From Phaeospirillum sp. (GTDB lineage: Bacteria > Pseudomonadota > Alphaproteobacteria > Rhodospirillales > Magnetospirillaceae): 64,000 nt of DNA. The stretch is taken from positions 1-64,000 of the forward strand of contig JAUSFB010000068.1 of NCBI GenBank assembly GCA_030651575.1, read 5' to 3'. Shown one piece after another: positions 45,176 to 56,839 of this stretch. A program made the translations under genes and the position numbers. Under the pieces are notes generated by a model. The model was not told where the DNA came from, searched no databases, and saw nothing but the letters and a program-made list of their open reading frames with translations. Numbering within the stretch: the first letter of the stretch is position 1; every line of letters starts with the position of its first letter.

Positions 45176-45541
45176 GTGTCCGACTATTTCTTTTACGCCG
45201 CCATGCTGCGCTTCGTCGCCAACAAGACCGAGGCCGCCGATCCCGGCGCCCATGCGATGATGGCGGAGTTGCGCGCCGTCGCCGACGCGGCTTCGGCGGG
45301 GCCGCGCGTGACTGTGGCGGCGGATCGGCTGGAACTGGCGGCGCGGGCTTTCGCCGGCTTTGCCGCTTTTCTACAAAAACAGATCCTCCCCGAGGCGGTG
45401 GCCCTTGGCAATGCCGGGGCCGAGGCGCAGCTGCGATGGGCGGTCGATGTCGCCATGGCGGGGGTCAACACCTTGCTCGGCCGCGCCGCCCTGGTGGAGG
45501 AGCGATGCGCCGTGGAGTTGATTTTGCCGCCACCGCCTTAG
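45176..45541 (+). CDS. Small helical protein of unknown function
   Basis: A 121-residue, alanine-rich, helical protein. The GTG start has AAGGA about 9 bp upstream. No motif is recognised. It begins the plus-strand block that continues with the tiny membrane ORF and the EAL gene, with overlaps or short gaps, so all may be co-transcribed. Confidence 0.55.
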   Translation: MSDYFFYAAMLRFVANKTEAADPGAHAMMAELRAVADAASAGPRVTVAADRLELAARAFAGFAAFLQKQILPEAVALGNAGAEAQLRWAVDVAMAGVNTLLGRAALVEERCAVELILPPPP

Positions 45542-45657
45542 GCAAGGCCAGTCTAGCCAAGGCCGATCTAGCCAAGGCCGATCCGGCATGGTTCACTATC
45601 GGCGTCGCGGCCACATTGGGGGCCTTGATGTTTTGGAGGCATGGGGATGTTGAGTAG
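45505..45657 (+). CDS. Possible 50-residue membrane protein with tandem pentapeptide repeats
   Basis: The frame starts at ATG 45505 with GGAGGAG just upstream, overlaps the previous gene by 37 bp and the EAL gene by 11 bp. It encodes GKASLAKADLAKADPAWF then a hydrophobic segment (TIGVAATLGALMFW). The Ala-Lys-Ala-Asp repeats come from a 15-bp tandem DNA repeat (CTAGCCAAGGCCGAT). It may be a real overlapping small gene or a by-product of the repeat. Confidence 0.35.
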   Translation: MRRGVDFAATALGKASLAKADLAKADPAWFTIGVAATLGALMFWRHGDVE

Positions 45658-46807
45658 GGACGTTGTCGCCGGCAATCTGATCTTTTCCGAGGGAGATCGG
45701 GCCGACGCCGCCTATCTGATCGAGCGGGGGGTGGTTGAAATCGCCGTGAGCCGCGACGGGCATCGTCAGGTGCTGGCCCTGTTGGGATCGGGCGAGATTT
45801 TCGGCGAGATGGGGGTCATCGACAACCTGCCGCGCTCGGCCACCGCCACCGCGGTCGAGGATTGCCGGCTGGTCGAGGTCTCGGGCGAGCAGATACAGCA
45901 GGTGATCGCCCGCTCGGACCCGTTCTTCGCCGAGCTGATGCGCAAGCTGGTCGGCCGCCTGCGCGATACCCAGAACGCCTTGCTTCAGGGGCGCGAGACC
46001 GTCGGCCTCCATGTTTCGGACTTTGGTCCGGGCTATGCCGAGCTGGTGCGTGAGCGCGATATCGCCGAGGCGATCATCGGCGGCGAGATCGAGCCCTATC
46101 TTCAGCCCATCGTCGATCTGGGCGAGGGCGTCATTCTCGGCTACGAGTCGTTGGCCCGCTGGCGCTCCGACCGGCTTGGCCTGATGCGGCCGGTGGATTT
46201 CCTGCCGCTGGCCCGGCGCACCGGCCTGATCCGCCGGATCGATCTGACCATGGCCGACAGGGCGATGGCCATCTGCGCCAGGCTGGGCAGCCGCGAGGAC
46301 TCTCCGTTCGTCTGCATCAACGTCTCGGCCTGGCTGTTTCAGGACTATTCCCTGGTCGACGCGCTGCGGCGGATGCTGGATCAGCATCGGCTGGCTCCGG
46401 CCCGGATTTGCCTGGAGGTGACCGAGACCATGCTGATCGACGATCTCGACGCCGCCGAGCGGACCATGGACGAGCTTCATGACCTGGGGCTGCGCATCGC
46501 CCTGGATGATTTCGGTACCGGCCTGTCCTCGCTTGGCATTCTTCACCGGCTGCCGTTCGATATGCTTAAAGTCGATGGCAGCATGGTGCAGGGCTGCCAG
46601 ACTTCGGCGAGACAGCGGGGCATGCTCAAGGGTATCTTGGACCTGTGCGGCCGCCTTGACATCGAAGTGATCGCCGAGGGGATCGAGGATGCCGGGACGG
46701 CTCGGGCTTTGCTTGATCTGGGCTTCGTCATGGGGCAAGGATTACACTTCGCCCCGCCGGTTCAGGCCGAGCAGGCAATGGCATCCTGGCGCGAAGGTGT
46801 GACATGA
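45647..46807 (+). CDS. cNMP-binding-domain EAL c-di-GMP phosphodiesterase
   Basis: A 386-residue protein. Residues about 5-125 form a Crp-like cyclic nucleotide-binding domain (GSGEIFGEMGVIDNLPRSAT). Residues about 140-380 form an EAL domain with all key residues: YESLARW (E167; ESL for EAL), NVSAWLFQ, EVTETML, ALDDFGTGLSSL, AEGIED and GQGLHFAPP. It should hydrolyse c-di-GMP under control of a small ligand. ATG 45647 is preferred because GGAGG lies 7 bp upstream; ATG 45641 is only 1 bp from it. The stop overlaps the GGDEF gene. Confidence 0.9.
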   Translation: MLSRDVVAGNLIFSEGDRADAAYLIERGVVEIAVSRDGHRQVLALLGSGEIFGEMGVIDNLPRSATATAVEDCRLVEVSGEQIQQVIARSDPFFAELMRKLVGRLRDTQNALLQGRETVGLHVSDFGPGYAELVRERDIAEAIIGGEIEPYLQPIVDLGEGVILGYESLARWRSDRLGLMRPVDFLPLARRTGLIRRIDLTMADRAMAICARLGSREDSPFVCINVSAWLFQDYSLVDALRRMLDQHRLAPARICLEVTETMLIDDLDAAERTMDELHDLGLRIALDDFGTGLSSLGILHRLPFDMLKVDGSMVQGCQTSARQRGMLKGILDLCGRLDIEVIAEGIEDAGTARALLDLGFVMGQGLHFAPPVQAEQAMASWREGVT

Positions 46808-47706
46808 CCGAAGGTGTTCCGCATCTCCAGGCCGAGCATATCTTCTCTGGCCTCAGCGACTATCAGCATGCGCTCAGTAGCCATATGGACTGGCTGCGGC
46901 ATTGGTACAGCGCCGTCCTCAACTGGGGCGAGGAACCGCCGCGCGGCGTCGATCGCACCGCCTGCACCTTCGACGCCTGGTTCGGCGGCGCGACGGGCTC
47001 CCTGCTCGGCGGCTACGCCGGTTTCGCCAAGCTGGGCGAGTTGCATGACGAAGTTCATGATACCGCCGAGCGGATCACCGGCCGCGTCAGTACCGGCCAG
47101 ACCGTCACCACCTCGGATTACGAGGCCATGATGGCCCTGGTGCTGGCGTTCAGCACCGCGGCCCAGACGCTGGAGCGCGAGGTGTGGCGGACCCTGGCCA
47201 CGGTCGATCCCCTGACCGGGCTGGGCAACCGCCAGACCATGATGTCCCAACTGGTCAGCGAACGCGACCGCGCCATCCGGTTGGCCCAGCCGTGTTGCGT
47301 CGGTCTGGGCGATATCGATCACTTCAAGAAAATCAACGACACGTTCGGCCATGCCGCCGGGGACCGGGTCTTGCGCGCGGTGTCCGACTGCCTGCGCGGC
47401 GCGGTGCGGCCCTACGACATCTTGTATCGTTATGGCGGCGAGGAGTTTCTGGTCTGCCTGCCCGCCGCCACCCTGGAGGCCGGCGCCCTGGTGCTGGAGC
47501 GCATGCGGGCCGCGGTCCAGCAGATGAACATGAAAGACGATGCCGGTCGCAAGATCGTCGTCACCGCGACCTTCGGCCTTGCCGAGTTGACCGCCGATCA
47601 ATCGGTGGAGGAAACGCTGGAGCGGGCGGACAACGCCCTTTATGACGGCAAGCGCGCCGGCCGCAACCGGGTGGTGCTGTACAGCGACGACGGGCGGGAG
47701 AAGTAG
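46804..47706 (+). CDS. Diguanylate cyclase with N-terminal CZB-like zinc-sensing domain (DgcZ type)
   Basis: A 300-residue protein. Residues about 15-130 resemble the chemoreceptor zinc-binding domain: HMDWLRHWYSAVLNWGE, then CTFDAWF and two further histidines (LHDEVHDTAE). The GGDEF domain has GGEEF (211-215), DPLTGLGNR and GDIDHFKKINDTFGH, with an inhibitory-site RPYD five residues before GGEEF. It should make c-di-GMP, with zinc inhibition and product feedback inferred from E. coli DgcZ. ATG overlaps the EAL stop by 4 bp, pairing synthesis and breakdown in one operon. Confidence 0.9.
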   Translation: MTEGVPHLQAEHIFSGLSDYQHALSSHMDWLRHWYSAVLNWGEEPPRGVDRTACTFDAWFGGATGSLLGGYAGFAKLGELHDEVHDTAERITGRVSTGQTVTTSDYEAMMALVLAFSTAAQTLEREVWRTLATVDPLTGLGNRQTMMSQLVSERDRAIRLAQPCCVGLGDIDHFKKINDTFGHAAGDRVLRAVSDCLRGAVRPYDILYRYGGEEFLVCLPAATLEAGALVLERMRAAVQQMNMKDDAGRKIVVTATFGLAELTADQSVEETLERADNALYDGKRAGRNRVVLYSDDGREK

Positions 47707-47730: not shown

Positions 47731-48165
47731 CTAATCCGGTAGCCGGAACGAAGGCGGCAGATTCTTCAGGTGTTCTCGCATGCGAAGATCGCTCTTGATG
47801 ATGTGGTCGACCAGCCAGTGCCGGAGAAAGCGGGAGACTTCCGCAAGCGATTCCTTGGTCACCGGGTCGGTCCGGTCGATGAAATAGCGCCGGGCCATGG
47901 CCTTGATCGAAGCCAGAAGCTCCTGATGCTGCTGCTTGTGGGGGGCATGGAAGGGATAGTGGCAGGCGGCCTGAATCGCCTCCTCGCGATCAAAGTGAAT
48001 GGCGGCGTAGTCATGGAGGCCGATCAGGGTTTCATGCAGGGTCCGGTCGCCGGGCAGGCGTTGCGCCATATTCTCGAAATCGTTGATGATGGCGATCAAC
48101 TGGCGGTGGTCGCCGTCGATATCGACCTGTCCGACACACATCTCTTCGCGCCATAGCAACGTCAT
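47731..48165 (-). CDS. Bacteriohemerythrin
   Basis: A 144-residue single-domain hemerythrin. The diiron ligands are visible: IDGDHRQL, LHDYAAIHFDREE (His, Glu), HAPHKQQHQEL (two His) and HWLVDHIIKSD (His, Asp). It binds oxygen reversibly and may store, carry or sense it. It is divergent from the MBL-hemerythrin fusion gene, sharing a 155-bp promoter region with an inverted repeat. Confidence 0.93.
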   Translation of the reverse strand: MTLLWREEMCVGQVDIDGDHRQLIAIINDFENMAQRLPGDRTLHETLIGLHDYAAIHFDREEAIQAACHYPFHAPHKQQHQELLASIKAMARRYFIDRTDPVTKESLAEVSRFLRHWLVDHIIKSDLRMREHLKNLPPSFRLPD

Positions 48166-48320: not shown

Positions 48321-50933
48321 ATGTCCGGACTTCGTAAGGTTGACGTAACGCCGGGTATCGTCTGGGTGGAAGTCCCGGAGGTCGATCTGCGCATCTTGTG
48401 CGGATGTCCGGCCGATGCGGTCAAGCACATGATGCGTCGCGGGTTGATTCTGCCGGTCGAGGTCGGGGGCGTTCGTTGCGAGAGCGGGCCGAACGCCATC
48501 TTGCTGTCCGACGTGATGGTCCAGAACGGCGCGTTTTGCAATCTGGGCGAGTTTCCCGTCCTTCAGATGTTTTATCGCCAAGGCATGCTGTTGCCGGGCC
48601 ATCCCAACAATACCGGCCGCCGGCCGTTGCTGATCGGTCGGGTCGAGCAGCTTCAGGCCCAGCTTCAATATATCTATCGGGGCAATTACGGTCTGATTTC
48701 GGTGGAGGAGCTGCGGGAAGCGGGGCTCGACGCCGAGACCGCCGCCGACATGATGCGGTTGAAGCTGAAATTCGCCTTTGGCCGCATTCAGCCCCCGCGA
48801 GAGCTGCTGGACATCCTGGCCCTGTCCGACGAGGCGGTGGAAATCCGGGACGGCGTCACCGTGCGGCGTCTGGGCCTTAACCGCTTTCAGTTCGCCTACG
48901 AGGGCAAGACGGTCGAGGTCGATCTTAACCTGCCGCCGTTCGAGATCCACGAGTGCCCCTATACGCTCGGCTTTCATCAGATCCCGCGCGAGTATTTTGC
49001 GGTGATCCATTCCGGCGACGGCGACGGCTGGGATATCCGCCGGCCCAGCATGGGGGCGATCCTGGTCTATCAGGGCGGGATCTATCTGGTCGATGCCGGC
49101 CCCAATCTGGTTTACGCCCTGACTTCGCTTGGCATCGGCATCAATGAGGTCGAGGGAATCTTCCACACTCATTCCCACGACGACCATTTCGCGGGACTGA
49201 CGACGCTGATCCGGGCGGATCGTCGGATCAAGTACTTCGCCACCCCCATGGTGCGCGCGGCGGTGACCAAGAAGATGGCGGCGCTGCTGTCGCTGGAGGA
49301 GGAGGATTTCTCCGACTATTTCGACGTCCGCGATCTGGTGATGGGCGAGTGGAACGACGTGGACGGGTTGGAGGTCCGGCCGATCTTCTCGCCTCATCCG
49401 GTCGAGACCACACCCTTCGTCTTTCGGGTCTTGGCCGAGGGCGGCTATCGGAGCTATGCCCATTTCGCCGATATCGTCGGACTGACGATCCTGGACGGAA
49501 TGGTGACCGACGACCCGGGCAAGCCCGGCATCGCCCGCGAATGGGTCGAGCGCATCGTCACGGATTATGCCGAGGCGGCCGACGTCAAGAAGGTGGATAT
49601 CGGTGGCGGCCTGATCCATGGCGCGGCCGAGGATTTCGCCTCGGACCGGTCGGGTAAGATCATCTTGTCCCACACCGCGCTGAAGCTGTCCGACGCCCAG
49701 AAGCGGATCGGGTCGGGCGCCTCGTTCGGCACGGTGGACGTGCTGGTCCGCAGCAATCGCGATTTCGCGCGGCGCACCGCCTATGGGCATCTGACCAGCT
49801 ACTTTCCGACGGTGAGCGACGCCCATCTTCAGATTTTGCTCAACAGCCCGCTGGTGTTGTTCAATCCCGAGACCATCCTTATCAAGGAGGGCTCCACCAG
49901 CGACGCTATCTACCTGCTGCTGACCGGTCAGGTGGAGATGTTGAGCAGCGACAGTCAGTTCCGCAGCCAGTTGTCGGCCGGCGCGCTGCTGGGGGAACTG
50001 TCCGGGCTGCATGGGCTTCCGTCCATGGAGACCTACCGCGCCACCAGCTATGTCCAGGTTCTGCGGCTGTCTTGCGAGTTCTATCTGGAATTCGTCAAGC
50101 GCCACGACCTGTTCGCCGACATCTCGCGGCTGATGGAAACCCGCGAATTTCTTCAGCGAACCTGGCTGTTCGGCGAGGTGGTGTCCACCGGAACCCTGAA
50201 CCGGCTCGCCAACGAGATGCGTCCCCTGGCCTTTGCCGCCGGCGAGACCATGGTCATCGGCGACCGTCACGTCGCCCTGGTGCGGTCGGGTCAGGCGATG
50301 CGGCTGGCCGGCGGGCAGGAGATGGAGTGCCTGGAGCATGGCGACTTTTTCGGCGAGGAGACGGCGGTATTCGACACGCCGCGTCTGACCCAGGTGGTCG
50401 CCACCCAGGCCGCCGAGTTGTTCATCTTACCCGCCAGCACCCTGTCCAGCATCCCCGGCGTGAGGTGGAAGCTGTTCGAGACCTTCCATCGCCGGACCAG
50501 GGCCTGTTCGGAGGTCGATATCGAAAGCTCGTCCGAAATGGTGTGGCGCGAGGAGTACAGCGTCAACATCCAGCGGATCGACAATCATCACCGTCGCCTG
50601 TTCGAGATGTCGAATCGGCTGATAGAGGCCATCCGCAAGGGCAAGGGCGCAACTGAAATGGCGGAGGCGCTTGATTTTCTGATGGGCTACGCCATGTATC
50701 ATTTCTCGGAGGAAGAAGCGCTGCTGGAGCGTTACGGCTATTCCGAGCAAGCGGGGCATGCCCTTAAGCACAAGCGGTTGCTGGCCCAGGTTCGCGATCT
50801 GGAGGAACGGCTTTCCGGTGGCGGCATGTCGGCCGACGAGGTGCTGGTTTTTCTTCAGGACTGGATCGTCAATCACATCTTGGTGGAAGATCGCCGTTTC
50901 TCGGTCTTCATTAATGAAAAGGGCGTTTACTGA
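48321..50933 (+). CDS. MBL-fold / double cNMP-binding / hemerythrin fusion protein
   Basis: An 870-residue soluble protein from ATG 48321 (GGGGAGGGGG upstream). The first ~190 residues are unassigned. Next is a metallo-beta-lactamase-fold domain with HTHSHDDHFAG (ligands H284, H286, D288, H289) and later SPHPVETTPF and HFADIVG. Then come two Crp-like cyclic nucleotide-binding domains (about 503-595 and 633-730). A complete hemerythrin domain closes it (about 739-865: DNHHRRLF, YHFSEEE, HALKHKRL, NHILVEDRRF). It could couple oxygen or NO sensing to nucleotide binding and a hydrolase, but the activity is unknown. Confidence 0.88.
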   Translation: MSGLRKVDVTPGIVWVEVPEVDLRILCGCPADAVKHMMRRGLILPVEVGGVRCESGPNAILLSDVMVQNGAFCNLGEFPVLQMFYRQGMLLPGHPNNTGRRPLLIGRVEQLQAQLQYIYRGNYGLISVEELREAGLDAETAADMMRLKLKFAFGRIQPPRELLDILALSDEAVEIRDGVTVRRLGLNRFQFAYEGKTVEVDLNLPPFEIHECPYTLGFHQIPREYFAVIHSGDGDGWDIRRPSMGAILVYQGGIYLVDAGPNLVYALTSLGIGINEVEGIFHTHSHDDHFAGLTTLIRADRRIKYFATPMVRAAVTKKMAALLSLEEEDFSDYFDVRDLVMGEWNDVDGLEVRPIFSPHPVETTPFVFRVLAEGGYRSYAHFADIVGLTILDGMVTDDPGKPGIAREWVERIVTDYAEAADVKKVDIGGGLIHGAAEDFASDRSGKIILSHTALKLSDAQKRIGSGASFGTVDVLVRSNRDFARRTAYGHLTSYFPTVSDAHLQILLNSPLVLFNPETILIKEGSTSDAIYLLLTGQVEMLSSDSQFRSQLSAGALLGELSGLHGLPSMETYRATSYVQVLRLSCEFYLEFVKRHDLFADISRLMETREFLQRTWLFGEVVSTGTLNRLANEMRPLAFAAGETMVIGDRHVALVRSGQAMRLAGGQEMECLEHGDFFGEETAVFDTPRLTQVVATQAAELFILPASTLSSIPGVRWKLFETFHRRTRACSEVDIESSSEMVWREEYSVNIQRIDNHHRRLFEMSNRLIEAIRKGKGATEMAEALDFLMGYAMYHFSEEEALLERYGYSEQAGHALKHKRLLAQVRDLEERLSGGGMSADEVLVFLQDWIVNHILVEDRRFSVFINEKGVY

Positions 50934-51093: not shown

Positions 51094-51194
51094 CCGAATT
51101 TCCTGAATGTCGATATAGTTTAGCCCTGACGGTGTTTCGTATAGTATTCGCGCAAGGCTGGTGCGACACGGCCGGACGCCAGGGAAGGAAGCCC

Positions 51195-53147
51195 GTGGGG
51201 CAATATCCTGAAACCGTCGATATCTCGATGATGCAAGGTGTGCTGGAGCACCTGGATCAGGGTATTTCCGTGTTCGACGCCAAGCTTCGGCTGGTGCTGT
51301 GGAACCGGCGGTTCACGGAGTTGTTCAAGCTGCCGCCAGGCTTGGTCCGCTACGGCGCCGCCTTCGAGGACATCATCCGCTTCAATGCCGAACGGGGCGA
51401 ATACGGCCCTCACGAGGAGGTGGAGGCCCAGGTCCGGTTCAGGGTCGATCAGGCCCGGCACTTCCAGCCTCACCGCCTCGATCGGACCCGGCCCGATGGA
51501 TCGATCATCGAGATCATCGGCAATCCGCTGCCCGATGGGGGGGTCGTTACCAGCTACAGCGACGTCACGGTGGCCCGGCAGGTCTCGGGCAATCTGCGCG
51601 AATCCAATGATCGCCTGGATCAGATGGTCGAGCGTCGCACCCGCGCGCTTCAGGCCAGCGATGACCGCCACCGCGCCTATGCGGAACTGCTTGAAGCTAC
51701 CGTGCGCCACATGCCCCAAGGGGTTTGCGTGTTCGATTCCGAATTGAATCTGGTGGTGGGCAATGACGGGTTTTTCGAGGCGACCCAGGTTCCCCGCTCT
51801 TTCGACGTGCAGGGAAAGCCGTTCGGGGACTTCATGCTGTACAACGCCCAGCGCGGCGAATACGGGCCGGGCGATCCGTTGGAATTGGCCCGCCAGCGGG
51901 TAGAGATCGCGCGCCTGATGATGCCGCATTCCTTCGATCGGAAGCGGCCCGACGGGACGGTGATCGAGGTTCTCGGCAATCCGATTCCCGGCCGGGGCTT
52001 CATCAGCACCTTCACCGATATCACGGCGCGCCACCGGGCCGAGGAGTCCCTGCGCGAGGCGGCGACCATGGCGCAGGCCATGCTGGACGCGCCGGGGCTG
52101 ATCGTTTTGCTGCTGACTCTGGACGGCACCGTCCTCGACCTCAACGACAGCGCCGCCGGCAGCCTGGGACGGTCAAAGGATGAACTGATCGGCAGCAATG
52201 TCTTGCGGTTGATGCCGCCCGAGGTGGCTATCCGCAGGGTCGAGTTCGCCCAGCAGGCGATCGCGGAAAGCCGCGCCATTCATTACGAGGATGGGCATGG
52301 CGGCCGCTGGTTCGAGACCACCGTCACTCCCTACGCCCCCGATCAGAAGGGGGAGGCGCGGGTGATGGTGATCGCCCACGACGTCACCCATCGCCACCTG
52401 GCCGAGCAGCACCTGCGCGAGGCCAAGGCGCTGGCCGAGACCGCCAACCGCACCAAGACCGATTTCCTCGCGGCCATGAGCCACGAATTGCGGACTCCGC
52501 TGAACGCCATCTTGGGCTTTTCCGAGATCATCAATCGCGAGATGTTCGGCCCGGTGGGCGAACGGTATCGCTCTTATGGCAGCGACATCAACAACGCCGG
52601 TCAGCACCTGCTGGAGATGATCAACGATATTTTGGATATCTCGCGCATCGAGATCGGCGCCTTTACCCTGAGCGAGGAAGACGTCGACCCGCATGGATTG
52701 GCCGAATCCTGCCTGAGGCTGGTGGCCAGCCGCGCCGAACAGGGCGTTGTTCATCTGATCGACGCCGTGCCGGATTCCATGCCGTCGCTGCGCCTGGACG
52801 CGCGGCGGACCAAGCAGGTCCTGCTCAATCTGCTGGGCAACTCCGTCAAGTTCACTCCGGCCGGGGGCACGGTCACCCTGAGCGCGGAGCTGGAGCCGGA
52901 CGGCTGCTTTGTCTTTCGGGTGGCCGATACCGGCATCGGCATGAGCAAGGACGATGTCGCGGTCGCTCTGTCACGATTCGGCCAGGTCGATAGCGGCCTT
53001 GATCGGCGGTTCGAGGGCGTCGGGCTGGGGCTGCCCCTGGCCAAGTCATTAACCGAGTTGCATGGCGGGGTGCTGGAGATCGCCTCCGTCCCCGGTCAGG
53101 GCACGGTCATCACGGTCCGGTTTCCCGCCGCCTGCGTCCGGGGTTAA
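51195..53147 (+). CDS. Soluble PAS-domain sensor histidine kinase
   Basis: The product has 650 residues from GTG 51195 with AAGGA 5 bp upstream. Two related PAS-7-type domains (VLEHLDQGISVFDAKLRLV and VRHMPQGVCVFDSELNLV) are followed by a third PAS domain (LDAPGLIVLLLTLDGTVLDL). HisKA carries MSHELRTPLNAILGFSE with the phosphoacceptor His; the HATPase domain has LLGNSVKFT, ADTGIGMS and GLGLPLAKS. No membrane segment, so it senses a cytoplasmic cue. A longer frame starting at 50988 would translate repeat copy B. The stop overlaps the convergent TlpA-like stop. Confidence 0.9.
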   Translation: MGQYPETVDISMMQGVLEHLDQGISVFDAKLRLVLWNRRFTELFKLPPGLVRYGAAFEDIIRFNAERGEYGPHEEVEAQVRFRVDQARHFQPHRLDRTRPDGSIIEIIGNPLPDGGVVTSYSDVTVARQVSGNLRESNDRLDQMVERRTRALQASDDRHRAYAELLEATVRHMPQGVCVFDSELNLVVGNDGFFEATQVPRSFDVQGKPFGDFMLYNAQRGEYGPGDPLELARQRVEIARLMMPHSFDRKRPDGTVIEVLGNPIPGRGFISTFTDITARHRAEESLREAATMAQAMLDAPGLIVLLLTLDGTVLDLNDSAAGSLGRSKDELIGSNVLRLMPPEVAIRRVEFAQQAIAESRAIHYEDGHGGRWFETTVTPYAPDQKGEARVMVIAHDVTHRHLAEQHLREAKALAETANRTKTDFLAAMSHELRTPLNAILGFSEIINREMFGPVGERYRSYGSDINNAGQHLLEMINDILDISRIEIGAFTLSEEDVDPHGLAESCLRLVASRAEQGVVHLIDAVPDSMPSLRLDARRTKQVLLNLLGNSVKFTPAGGTVTLSAELEPDGCFVFRVADTGIGMSKDDVAVALSRFGQVDSGLDRRFEGVGLGLPLAKSLTELHGGVLEIASVPGQGTVITVRFPAACVRG

Positions 53148-53725
53148 GGCGCCGTGGTCATCTTGACCTGCGGTGGGGCCATGTCCGGGGTTAGCGGCCG
53201 GCCGGCGGCGAGGGCTTCGAGCAGGATGGCGGCCTTGGGGCCTTCCCAGTCGGCGGCGCCGATATAGCGGGCAACCTCGCGGCCTTGCCGATCCAGCAGC
53301 AGGCTGACCGGCAGCGCCGAGGCGTTCAGCTTTTCGGCGGCGGCGCGGGCCTCGTCGGTGCGGATGGCCAGGGCCGTGATGCCGAGCCGGGCATAGGTGT
53401 TGACCACCGCGATCTTGCCGCTGCGATCCAGCGACAGCGCGACCACCGCCACGCCCTTGGCCTCGGCCTTGGGCTTCAGGCGATCGAGCGCCGGCAGCTC
53501 GGCGACGCAGGGGCCGCACCAGCTGGCCCACAGGTTCAACAGGACGGCCTGCCCACGCAAGGACTCCAGTCCGGCGGGGGCGCCGTCGCCGTCCCGGATA
53601 TCCAGAGCCGGCAGCGTCTTGGGCTGGTCATGGATCAGCAGGCCCTGGGCGGCCTTGGCCCCGACCGGAGAGGGGAGGCCGAACGCCGCCAGGGCGGCGA
53701 GAAAAGCGCGGCGTTGCATGGTCAT
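53144..53725 (-). CDS. TlpA-like periplasmic thioredoxin
   Basis: A 193-residue thioredoxin-fold protein. The N-terminus QRRAFLAALAAFG looks like a Tat or Sec signal. The active site WASWCGPCVAELPAL and the cis-proline region NASALPVSLLLD are complete. TlpA-type reductases keep the copper sites of SCO and CuA proteins reduced. ATG overlaps the SCO1 stop (53722-53725), strongly suggesting a joint copper-insertion role for NosZ or an oxidase. Confidence 0.9.
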   Translation of the reverse strand: MTMQRRAFLAALAAFGLPSPVGAKAAQGLLIHDQPKTLPALDIRDGDGAPAGLESLRGQAVLLNLWASWCGPCVAELPALDRLKPKAEAKGVAVVALSLDRSGKIAVVNTYARLGITALAIRTDEARAAAEKLNASALPVSLLLDRQGREVARYIGAADWEGPKAAILLEALAAGRPLTPDMAPPQVKMTTAP

Positions 53726-54315
53726 TCGTCCGTCTTCTTCGGGTAGAGATAGGAGCGGACCCGCTCGGCCACCCGGTCGGGCTTGGAGCCATGGGGCATG
53801 CGCGCCAGGAAGTTGCCGGCGCGGTCCATGATGTAGATGGAGGCGGTGTGATCGACGCTGTAGGCGTTGGGGTCGCCATCCGCCGCCGGCTGCTTTTCGT
53901 AGCGGGCCTTGTAGTTATACGCCACCGCCGCGACCTGTTCCGGGCTGCCGGTCAGGCCGATGACCTCCGGGAACGACACCAGATAGTCCTTGAGATGGGC
54001 GACGGTGTCGCGCTGGGGATCGACGCTGATGAACAAAGTGACGACCTTGGCGCGGTCGGCCCCCAGATGGTCGAGCGCCACCGACAAGGTGTTGAGGATG
54101 GTGGGACAGATATCGGGGCAGTAGGTGTAGCCGAACACCACCAGCCGGATCTTGCCGGCATAGGCCTCGTCGGTGACCGGCCGTCCGGTCGTGTCCACCA
54201 GCAAGAAGCGGCCGACCACGTCGCGGTCGGGGTCGCCAGCGGCCGATGCGGGAAAAGTCAGTCCGGCGCACCAGCCGATCAGGATGGTAAGGGAGGCGAT
54301 CACGGTCTTGCGCAT
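53722..54315 (-). CDS. SCO1/SenC family copper chaperone
   Basis: A 197-residue protein with a signal peptide (VIASLTILIGWCAGLTFPASA). The copper site is complete: GYTYCPDICPTIL (CxxxC) and VDHTASIYIMD (His). SCO proteins load or reduce CuA centres. It is transcribed divergently from nosZ and coupled to the TlpA-like gene, so CuA assembly in NosZ is the likely task. Confidence 0.93.
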   Translation of the reverse strand: MRKTVIASLTILIGWCAGLTFPASAAGDPDRDVVGRFLLVDTTGRPVTDEAYAGKIRLVVFGYTYCPDICPTILNTLSVALDHLGADRAKVVTLFISVDPQRDTVAHLKDYLVSFPEVIGLTGSPEQVAAVAYNYKARYEKQPAADGDPNAYSVDHTASIYIMDRAGNFLARMPHGSKPDRVAERVRSYLYPKKTDE

Positions 54316-54444: not shown

Positions 54445-54498
54445 GGCTTTTGCAGTGGTCTGAACCCATCGTGGCGGGTGAAGGTTGGGTAAGATTCC

Positions 54499-54504
54499 TA
54501 TAAT
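54499..54504 (+). promoter_or_regulatory. nosZ: Perfect -10 box of the nosZ promoter
   Basis: TATAAT lies 25 bp before the nosZ ATG. The position 17 bp upstream (GGGTGA region) has no -35 element, as expected for an activator-dependent promoter. Confidence 0.5.
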
Positions 54505-54529
54505 TTCAACAATCCAAAAGGTGGGGAAT

Positions 54530-56839
54530 ATGACGAAGACCCGCAAGCTGGCGACACTGCTCGCCACGGTGAGCTTTGGCGCCCTGGTGGCAGGCGCTGC
54601 CTCGGCCGAGTCGCTGCAAGAGGTGATGAAGCGCCGCGGACTGACCGAGAATGACATGCTCGCCGCCGCGAAGACCTATACGCCGACCGGCAAGATGGAC
54701 GAGTTCATGGTGTTCAGCTCGGGCGGTCAGAGCGGTCAAGTGATCGTCTATGCCGTTCCGTCCATGCGCATCTTGAAGTATATCGGCGTGTTCACGCCCG
54801 AGCCCTGGCAGGCCTATGGCTTCGACGACGAGTCCAAGCGCGTCCTGAAGGAAGGTTCCGAGGTTTCCGGCCGTTCGATCCTGTGGGGCGACACCCATCA
54901 CCCGGCGCTGTCCGAGACCAATGGCGAGTCCGACGGTCAGTGGCTGTTCATCAACGATAAGAACACCCCCCGCATCGCGGTCATCGATCTGCGCGACTTC
55001 GAGACCAAGCAGATCGTCCAGAATCCGGTCCTGCAGTCCGAGCATGGCGGCGCCTTCGTCAGCCCGAACACCGACTACATCGCCGAAGCGGCGCAGTACC
55101 CGACCCCCCTGGGCGGTGAATTCGCTCCGCTGGAGCAGTTCAACGACAAGTATCGTGGCGCGCTGACCCTTTGGAAGTTCAACCGCGAGCACGGCCGCAT
55201 CGAGCCCGAGAACTCGTTCTCGCTCGAACTGCCCCCCTACAGCCAGGATCTGGCCGACTTTGGCAAGGGCGCGTCCGACGGTTGGGTGTTCGTGAACTCG
55301 TTCTGCACCGAGCGTTATGTCGGTGGTATCGAGCGCGGCCGTCCCCCCTTCGAAGCCGGTTGCTCGGCCAAGGACAGCGACTTCCTGCACGTGATCAACT
55401 GGAAGAAGGCCGCCGAGCTGGTCAAGGCCGGCAAGGCCAAGAAGATCAACGGCCACAACGTTCTGCCCATTGACGTCGCGGTCAAGGAAGGCATCCTGGT
55501 GCTCATCCCCGAGCCCAAGAGCCCCCATGGCGCCGACGTCAGCCCGGACGGCAAGATGGTGATTGTTTCCGGCAAGCTGGACAGCCACACCACCGTCTAC
55601 GACATCGCCAAGATCGAAGCGGCCATTGCCGCCAAGACCTTCGCGGGCAAGGACGAGTACGGCATTCCGATCATCGCGCTGGAAACCGTCGCTCACAAGC
55701 AGGTTGCCCTGGGCCTTGGCCCGCTGCACACCCAGTACGACTCCAAGTCCTGCGTCGCCTATACCTCGCTGTACGTCGACTCCATGGTCGCCAAGTGGGA
55801 TTATTGCGAAGGCAAGGTCATCGACAAGCTGTCGGTGCACTACAACATCGGCCATTTGATGGCCATGCAGGGCGATACCGCCAAGCCGTCGGGCAAGTAC
55901 CTGATCGCTCTGAACAAGCTGGCCATCGACCGGTTCGCTCAGGTTGGCCCGCTGCATCCGCAGAATCACCAGCTGATCGACATCAGCGGCGACAAGATGC
56001 AGCTGCTCTATGACATGCCGCTGCCGCTGGGCGAGCCCCACTACGCGGTGTCCATCGATATCGCCAAGCTGAAGACCAATGTCCGCTATCCGTTCGGCAC
56101 CGACTCCCGCACCGAGAAGAAGTCCCCGTTCGCTGTGCGTCCGGGCCAGGAGCGGATCGAGAAGAAGCCGGGTAAGGTCGAGGTGTTCGGCACCCTGATC
56201 CGCTCGCACATCACCCCTGAGATCATCGAGGCCAACGAGGGCGACGAAATCACCGTCCACCTCACCAACCTGGAACGCGCTCAGGACGAGACCCATGGTT
56301 TCGCCATCTCCAAGCATAACGTCAACCTGTCGGTCGAGCCGGGCAAGACCGCCTCGGCCACCATCAAGGCCAACAAGGCTGGCGTCTATCCCTACTACTG
56401 CACCGAGTTCTGCTCGGCGCTGCATCTGGAAATGGAAGGCTATCTCCTGGTCCAGCCGGCCAACTACAAGGCGACCGGCGTCAAGGGCAAGGAAGGCCAG
56501 ATCTATGGCAAGACCGAGTACGACGCCCGCGTGAAGGCCAATGTCGAGACCCAGGCCATCATCAACAGCGTCGTTGGTTACATCACCTCGGTGAATTACA
56601 AGGACTTCCCGGCCGTGGTCGCCATGGTCGAGGACGCCACCGAGCAGCTGGGCTATGCCGAGCAGAACAAGAAGAAGTCGGAAGAGTTCGCCACCAAGGG
56701 CGATTACAACGCCGCCTTCCTCTGGGCCGAGCAGTGGTTCCAGTATCAGGTCAAGACCGCCGATATCGGCCTGCGCGCCAAGACGTTCTTGGAGCAGAAT
56801 GGTGCCGTCAAGGTCGAAGCCGCTCCGGCTGCGAAGTAA
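54530..56839 (+). CDS. nosZ: Nitrous-oxide reductase, clade II type
   Basis: A 769-residue periplasmic multicopper enzyme reducing N2O to N2. The signal peptide (RKLATLLATVSFGALVAGAASA) lacks the twin-arginine motif, the mark of clade II (Sec-exported) NosZ. The beta-propeller contains the CuZ histidines (GDTHHPALSETNG, SEHGGAF, HNVLP, SPHGADVSPDG, HTQYDSK, HYNIGHL). The C-terminal cupredoxin has the CuA site YYCTEFCSALHLEM (C624, C628, H632, M635). AAGGTGGGG precedes ATG. It heads the nos cluster. Confidence 0.97.
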   Translation: MTKTRKLATLLATVSFGALVAGAASAESLQEVMKRRGLTENDMLAAAKTYTPTGKMDEFMVFSSGGQSGQVIVYAVPSMRILKYIGVFTPEPWQAYGFDDESKRVLKEGSEVSGRSILWGDTHHPALSETNGESDGQWLFINDKNTPRIAVIDLRDFETKQIVQNPVLQSEHGGAFVSPNTDYIAEAAQYPTPLGGEFAPLEQFNDKYRGALTLWKFNREHGRIEPENSFSLELPPYSQDLADFGKGASDGWVFVNSFCTERYVGGIERGRPPFEAGCSAKDSDFLHVINWKKAAELVKAGKAKKINGHNVLPIDVAVKEGILVLIPEPKSPHGADVSPDGKMVIVSGKLDSHTTVYDIAKIEAAIAAKTFAGKDEYGIPIIALETVAHKQVALGLGPLHTQYDSKSCVAYTSLYVDSMVAKWDYCEGKVIDKLSVHYNIGHLMAMQGDTAKPSGKYLIALNKLAIDRFAQVGPLHPQNHQLIDISGDKMQLLYDMPLPLGEPHYAVSIDIAKLKTNVRYPFGTDSRTEKKSPFAVRPGQERIEKKPGKVEVFGTLIRSHITPEIIEANEGDEITVHLTNLERAQDETHGFAISKHNVNLSVEPGKTASATIKANKAGVYPYYCTEFCSALHLEMEGYLLVQPANYKATGVKGKEGQIYGKTEYDARVKANVETQAIINSVVGYITSVNYKDFPAVVAMVEDATEQLGYAEQNKKKSEEFATKGDYNAAFLWAEQWFQYQVKTADIGLRAKTFLEQNGAVKVEAAPAAK

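Follow-up and report, generated by a model that had tools for sequence, protein, structure and literature searches.

A multi-phylum family joining an MBL domain, tandem Crp-like domains and exchangeable sensors, viewed from a hemerythrin-bearing member in Phaeospirillum

The locus and the protein

The window considered here, a stretch of 64,000 nucleotides from Phaeospirillum sp. (contig JAUSFB010000068.1, positions 1 to 64,000), contains a gene that brings together in one chain an N-terminal domain without a Pfam family, a catalytic MBL domain, two Crp-like domains (CNB1 and CNB2) and a bacteriohemerythrin. Counts out of 194 refer to a family set obtained from 263 loci, which gave 247 complete frames and 194 unique proteins (window copy included). 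The features of the locus are as follows.

45641..46807, + strand: cNMP_binding-EAL protein of 388 aa, with a canonical phosphate-binding cassette and intact EAL motifs (Pfam)
46804..47706, + strand: CZB-GGDEF diguanylate cyclase with a GGEEF motif (NF007380, which we take to be the DgcZ model; 295.7 bits, cut-off 256)
47731..48165, − strand: single-domain bacteriohemerythrin, divergently oriented, its membership in the unit doubtful (Pfam/NCBIfam)
48321..50933, + strand: the whole gene (MBL-like / MBL / CNB1 / CNB2 / hemerythrin), 870 aa plus stop (coding 48321–50930)
48321..48935 (aa 1–205), + strand: N-terminal domain without a Pfam family, putatively of MBL-like fold, lacking HxHxDH (Foldseek, alignment columns)
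48987..49760 (aa 223–480), + strand: catalytic MBL domain (Pfam, PDB profile search)
49170..49187 (aa 284–289), + strand: HxHxDH metal motif, intact in 194/194 family members
49806..50120 (aa 496–600), + strand: CNB1, cassette Glu present and cassette Arg absent (Pfam, alignment columns)
50148..50495 (aa 610–725), + strand: CNB2, with E679 and R688 (Pfam, alignment columns)
50538..50912 (aa 740–864), + strand: bacteriohemerythrin domain with seven iron ligands (NF033749, TIGR02481)
51135..53147, + strand: PAS-HisKA-HATPase kinase, start codon uncertain (Pfam)

The frame of the central gene is open from 48279, and the ATG at 48321 agrees with the start common to relatives. Pfam models above their curated cut-offs were cNMP_binding (63.7 bits over two stretches, cut-off 27.5), Hemerythrin (48.1), Lactamase_B_2 (33.0 bits) and Lactamase_B (31.6 bits); residues 1–235 had no Pfam or NCBIfam match. 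The hemerythrin part scored 117.5 bits with NF033749 (cut-off 84) and 111.4 bits with TIGR02481 (cut-off 51.75), and its iron ligands are H757, H794, E798, H813, H817, H852 and D857, which bears out the complete diiron site predicted by an earlier, sequence-only reading of this DNA. The same reading had put an unassigned N-terminal domain, an intact metallo-hydrolase site and two Crp-like domains into one chain with the hemerythrin, and the Pfam and NCBIfam matches and the motifs agree. The full-length AlphaFold2 model was confident (pLDDT 88.9, pTM 0.89). The fusion is thus confirmed as real, and is not a product of chance, because relatives 47–81% identical to it occur in several phyla (see below).

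The metallo-hydrolase site, supposed earlier to be intact, has all its ligands (H284, H286, D288, H289, H359, D384 and H451), and 194/194 family proteins keep this dinuclear site in full (HxHxDH plus H, D and H). What kind of hydrolase might this be? In a search of the PDB with an MBL profile, the top match was Apyc1 (E values 1.1e-7 and 4.5e-7), followed by an arylsulfatase as the second-ranked molecule (1.2e-5) and then by ELAC1 (2.4e-4). Apyc1 is described as a homodimer of the MBL class whose substrates are cyclic mononucleotides, and its relative YhfI as preferring cAMP and cGMP (PMC9117128). With phosphodiesterases of this type (PF23023, NF041851) the catalytic domain of the window protein shares a Lactamase_B_2-type fold and the HxHxDH site, as well as its top PDB profile match, but it differs from homodimeric Apyc1 in being fused to an MBL-like domain, two CNB domains and a sensor, and in scoring beneath the cut-offs (18.3 against 50 bits for PF23023, and 15.9 against 400 bits for NF041851). 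Since the window protein fell beneath the curated cut-off of every specific MBL model listed in the Pfam and NCBIfam scans, the likeness to Apyc1 is to be read as 'works like', not as membership.

Modelled alone with AlphaFold2 (pLDDT 89.6), the N-terminal domain gave Foldseek matches of which ranks 1–31 were all MBL folds by name; the best was Apyc1 (E 6.8e-5, probability 1.00), the query TM-scores of the MBL matches were only 0.33–0.44, and two matches were at E ≤ 0.001. Comparison of the domain with the catalytic MBL domain by hhalign gave no signal (probability 0.1, from shallow profiles), and Pfam gave scattered weak matches alone (best E 0.0053). In its predicted fold the domain may resemble a metal-free MBL domain, a likeness for which the sequence comparison offers no support; by analogy with homodimeric Apyc1, it might form a pseudo-dimer with the catalytic domain. 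Its residues C27 and H94 are invariant (194/194 members). A search with this domain alone found it in 59 of 99 genomes, and among the matches listed seven lay in frames of 83–505 aa (which may be contig-end fragments) and the rest in frames of more than 700 aa.

The cassette Glu and Arg of CNB domains hold the cyclic phosphate. In CNB1, E559 is accompanied by R568 in none of the 194 family proteins; in CNB2, E679 and R688 occur together in the window protein, in 8/9 of its genus clade and in 16/194 overall. To judge from these residues CNB2 of the window protein may bind a cyclic nucleotide, but a pair so sparsely distributed means that such binding is not a family trait, and the earlier proposal that both Crp-like domains sense cyclic nucleotides is not supported, in view of the missing Arg of CNB1 and the rarity of this residue in the family. 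When the full model was submitted to Foldseek, nearly all of the 50 matches listed were PKA or PKG structures by name (tandem CNB). The window protein resembles the PKA regulatory subunit and PKG in having two CNB domains in tandem, but in this family CNB1 lacks the cassette Arg, as CNB2 mostly does, and the pair is joined to an MBL domain rather than to a kinase. Another parallel is the cAMP-independent PKA-R of Trypanosoma, in which the cassette Arg is described as replaced and this goes with nucleoside binding (PMC6440977); the CNB domains are alike in this replacement, but where that protein has an added Glu the window protein has Ser (561) and Thr (681), on an alignment to PKA by eye. A nucleoside ligand, as in the Trypanosoma protein, would be one of several options for CNB domains that lack the Arg. 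We also observed one distant MBL match in PHROGs and four distant CNB matches in PADLOC.

A multi-phylum family and its exchangeable sensors

The fusion had been called unusual, which says too little: the protein belongs to an established multi-phylum family with exchangeable sensors and is not a one-off. A scan of named genomes gave at least 538 confirmed stretches, and the best 80 of these, which were kept, are 47–81% identical to the window protein; three of the 80 are without hemerythrin. Their hosts are Magnetospirillum and its kin, Magnetococcales, Betaproteobacteria and Gallionella, together with Desulfobacterales and further sulfate reducers, Campylobacterota, anammox planctomycetes, Nitrospirota and Nitrospinia (Nitrospinota). 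Matches were found at 1e-30 in 65 of 119 relatives' genomes and at 1e-40 in 56 of the 398 genomes sampled from its own phylum (the own genome counted in both), and in the phylum of Desulfonema in 3 of 198 sampled genomes, one of them Desulfonema itself. The genome of the window has three members, namely the window gene, a second with hemerythrin (56% identity) and a third without (54%), and up to four copies per genome occur in the genus. The alignments comprised 18 of 33 listed proteins (A1), the window protein and 80 of 81 others (A2, L117 left out), 76 of 81 slices (A4), 58 of 81 (A5) and every third row (A6).

Across the family set, mean identity to the window protein is 62% for the N-terminal and MBL domains and 40–45% for the CNB domains and hemerythrin. 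Of the 194 proteins, 136 carry hemerythrin and 58 do not, and 118 of the 136 keep all seven iron ligands. Upstream of the core, a receiver domain was found by HMM in 15 members (one also with hemerythrin), two more being REC-like by eye (L158, L159), and an SBP_bac_3 periplasmic binding domain by HMM in 6; the HMMs derive from the fusions that Pfam confirms, five with a receiver and three with SBP. As loci with long frames were deliberately chosen, the set is biased and these counts of architectures do not give frequencies. The strict phosphoacceptor pattern occurs in 12 of the 17 receiver forms; L141 and L151 are close variants of it, L158 and L159 have the Asp context alone, and L263 does not match. 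Both receiver and solute-binding inputs lie N-terminal of the core, as would be expected of an output enzyme. It is the core that stays constant while the sensors are exchanged round it: on the FastTree tree, hemerythrin switches state 14 times (for the label core-plus-Hr, nine changes are forced by starred branches alone), the receiver label needs four changes (at least three of them forced) and the SBP label one.

A same-strand histidine kinase lies within 2.5 kb of 5/17 receiver forms as against 10/80 of L039–L118 and 0/8 bare forms; 1/6 SBP forms has a kinase, on the other strand. The flanks are unequal in these comparisons. The frame upstream of the core in L131 has no domain recognizable by eye, and the long upstream frames of the Magnetospirillum paralogues L132–L134 were rejected as fusions because the frame overlaps a CHAT gene.

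Neighbouring genes and the cyclase operons of paralogues

The sequence-only reading had suggested that the protein forms one system with the neighbouring c-di-GMP pair and a PAS kinase. This neighbourhood is kept within the genus and is not supported beyond it. In eight same-genus orthologues (≥76% identity) the EAL gene adjoins the gene in 8/8, the GGDEF gene in 7/8 (all but L177) and the PAS kinase gene in 8/8; the EAL protein's own CNB domain has the canonical cassette (GE...RSA), alongside intact EAL motifs, in all eight. Outside the genus, the gene order of the window was found in 0/4 family members tested (L178–L181), and neighbours elsewhere are diverse. Among 57 close co-directional neighbours across phyla (61 passing a distance filter, minus four from L117 and L118; genes called by a crude longest-ORF rule), no family recurred more than three times, EAL being found in 3/57.

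The divergent bacteriohemerythrin, which had been put forward as a partner, is present in the window, but as a conserved partner it was rejected: a bacteriohemerythrin lies at the place of 47731–48165 in 0/8 same-genus orthologues (rechecked with the family hemerythrin HMM). In 5/8 of them (L173–L177) another part of the cluster holds a distant single-domain hemerythrin, past a 121-aa ORF and on the opposite strand, so that a looser link is possible. A 144-aa ORF between GGDEF and core in L047 was ruled out as a hemerythrin.

Paralogues lie in a different setting. The third member in the window genome belongs to an operon of a CHASE2-class III cyclase, a TPR-CHAT protein and the MBL core, and all three genes were present in 18/20 further loci chosen as orthologues of this paralogue or for CHAT already seen, the other two being incomplete (one lacking the upstream part, one a fragment). 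Fourteen of the 18 hold the hemerythrin-free Magnetospirillum paralogue and four a hemerythrin-bearing form in another genus. The same operon occurs in L040, L041, L043 and L179, of which the first three share their contigs, to judge by length, with L286, L285 and L288. On the tree the two operon forms are far apart, at a distance of 1.42 compared with the 0.78 that separates the window copy from the hemerythrin-bearing form (pairwise distances were used for this group, with no statement about clades). The cyclase of the operon retains its catalytic motifs, including a Lys/Asp pair that is presumably ATP-selecting, and the core of one member from Magnetococcales is directly followed by a Fer2-class III cyclase. 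Before this targeted choice, a cyclase was found near the core in 6/261 loci, many with short flanks. Class III cyclases are present in 19/19 family-holding genomes from several phyla as against 4/14 controls; within the relatives they occur in 118/119 genomes, with or without the family, which makes co-occurrence there uninformative. The link to nucleotide signalling that had been proposed from the window alone is thus supported, and strengthened by the class III cyclase operons of the paralogues.

A possible sensor-gated hydrolase

How might these parts work together? The explanation that we favour, at a probability of roughly one half, is that the protein is a sensor-gated MBL hydrolase serving as a signalling output, probably a cyclic-nucleotide phosphodiesterase, gated in the window protein by O2 or redox state. 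The fixed core (a metal-free MBL-like domain, the catalytic MBL domain and the two Crp-like domains) would hydrolyse a cyclic nucleotide, our best guess being a cyclic mononucleotide such as cAMP. The C-terminal diiron hemerythrin would report O2 or redox state, possibly NO, and a conformational signal passing from it through the Crp-like domains to the MBL site would alter the rate of hydrolysis; in other members a receiver or periplasmic binding domain would take the role of the hemerythrin. The adjacent cNMP-binding EAL protein of the window might then read the resulting change in cyclic nucleotide, which would couple O2 or redox state to c-di-GMP. The relatives with other sensors, or beside nucleotide-making enzymes, suggest an unstudied family of sensor-controlled signalling-nucleotide hydrolases. 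Of what the sequence-only reading proposed as a whole, the intact sites, the neighbourhood within the genus and the nucleotide link have held up; the case for the hemerythrin partner is weak, and the neighbourhood outside the genus and cyclic-nucleotide sensing by both CNB domains are not supported.

The same neighbourhood could be taken to mean that the substrate of the MBL domain is a cyclic dinucleotide (c-di-GMP, or else its linear product) and that the protein is a direct partner of the GGDEF and EAL proteins next to it. In the receiver fusions the core takes the place that a GGDEF or HD-GYP domain often has, and GGDEF is found in 19/19 family-holding genomes examined as against 8/14 controls, which, with the adjacency in the genus (EAL 8/8, GGDEF 7/8), would suit such a role; but none of the four members tested outside the orthologue group has retained these neighbours (EAL 3/57 elsewhere), the class III cyclases that some operons have of their own speak for mononucleotides, and we know of no MBL c-di-GMP phosphodiesterase. 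The closest structure, Apyc1, also acts on cyclic mononucleotides. We consider a dinucleotide substrate distinctly unlikely. A somewhat better case, though still an unlikely one, can be made for a substrate that is not a signalling nucleotide at all, such as a nucleic acid, a lactone, a sulfate ester or a phosphate ester. An RNase Z model matches 58/58 MBL domains (lactonase models at most 32/58), and the place of arylsulfatase in the PDB search is of the same tenor, but for the window protein such matches are far beneath curated cut-offs, and a signalling substrate accounts better for the exchange of sensors and for the cyclase operons.

Might the MBL domain instead be a metal-based sensor, with no enzymatic output, in a multi-input protein acting through protein contacts? 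Diiron MBL oxygen sensors do exist, and high conservation of an N-terminal domain that is without HxHxDH could be accommodated. Such flavodiiron-like oxygen sensors have the motif HxExD, however, and the site in this family is the hydrolase HxHxDH in 194/194; moreover, fusions to a receiver or a periplasmic sensor call for an output, which nothing but the core is left to provide, so that we think a purely sensory MBL domain improbable indeed.

Returning to the sensor-gated hydrolase, there are precedents for its general logic. In PMC8846402, hemerythrin is described as regulating both a diguanylate cyclase (VcBhr-DGC) and an HD-GYP phosphodiesterase (Ferrovum Bhr-HD-GYP). Those proteins are like the present one in that a bacterial hemerythrin gates, or here would gate, an enzyme of second-messenger synthesis or breakdown, but their output is GGDEF or HD-GYP, with the hemerythrin N-terminal (in the HD-GYP case), whereas here it would be the MBL domain, with the hemerythrin C-terminal. 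In the literature as far as its text was available, we recognized no account of an MBL-cNMP-hemerythrin protein or of MBL as a response-regulator output. The words 'cNMP' and 'lactamase' are absent from the main text of the survey of hemerythrin architectures in PMC4919030, and the available parts of PMC1592074 and PMC9549626 have nothing on the combination, which may yet be listed elsewhere. The MBL output module with exchangeable sensors therefore appears to be undescribed as a combination, its parts other than the N-terminal domain being known families.

A wider and more tentative suggestion, in which we place appreciably less confidence, is that the core represents an unnamed class of second-messenger hydrolase, which bacteria at oxic–anoxic boundaries combine with a hemerythrin, a receiver or a periplasmic sensor in the way in which EAL, HD-GYP and GGDEF domains are used. 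It would link O2 or redox state to cyclic mononucleotides and in the window, by way of the cNMP-gated EAL protein, to c-di-GMP, while the partners of paralogues would be an adenylate cyclase with CHASE2 and a CHAT protein of caspase-like kind. If this is true, a new and conserved type of regulated second-messenger hydrolase would be present in many redox-boundary bacteria, and a role would have been found for some of the many hemerythrins of these organisms. The operon of cyclase, CHAT and MBL genes is a small circuit in which such ideas are testable.

A conserved Cys/His set and cyclase-linked neighbours

The MBL-like N-terminal domain of the core carries four near-invariant residues among the 194 unique family proteins compared, namely C27 and H94 (each 194/194), H36 (185/194) and C29 (183/194), which could constitute a second metal or redox site. 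At two loci a cyclase adjoins a family member as follows:

L181 5983-14100 (own genome, G000:C74): operon of a CHASE2-class III cyclase, a TPR-CHAT protein and the hemerythrin-free paralog
L106 10623-12416 (Magnetococcales MAG): class III cyclase carrying a fused 2Fe-2S ferredoxin domain

Both ATHG and SACET motifs are found in the TPR-CHAT protein, and the operon is possibly a cyclic-nucleotide-linked caspase-like system. At L106, the ferredoxin-cyclase fusion lies directly 3' of a core-hemerythrin gene, a possible redox-controlled cyclase/hydrolase pair.

Surroundings of the EAL-GGDEF-core block

The following flank the block (cNMP_binding-EAL, CZB-GGDEF and core-hemerythrin genes) in the window:

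45176-45541 (+): 121-aa ORF on the 5' side of the EAL gene
54485-56839, with 53144-54315 (-): NosZ, a nitrous-oxide reductase of the Sec-dependent type (clade II), adjoined by SCO1/SenC and a TlpA-like thioredoxin

The 121-aa ORF, which is without a Pfam family match, precedes the EAL gene in seven of the eight same-genus orthologs (60-67% identity). In five of these eight (L173-L177), the cluster starts with a single-domain hemerythrin gene, on the opposite strand and upstream of this ORF; its product shows 22-26% identity to that of the window (47731-48165) where tblastn aligned them (4/5). Apart from the three family members, the genome that contains the window has 26 more scattered stretches that match the hemerythrin portion of the core-hemerythrin protein, and 47731-48165 is one of them.

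NosZ of the window scores 869 bits against a TIGR04246 cut-off of 625. The SCO and TlpA genes lie on the opposite side of the block in 7/8 genus orthologs.
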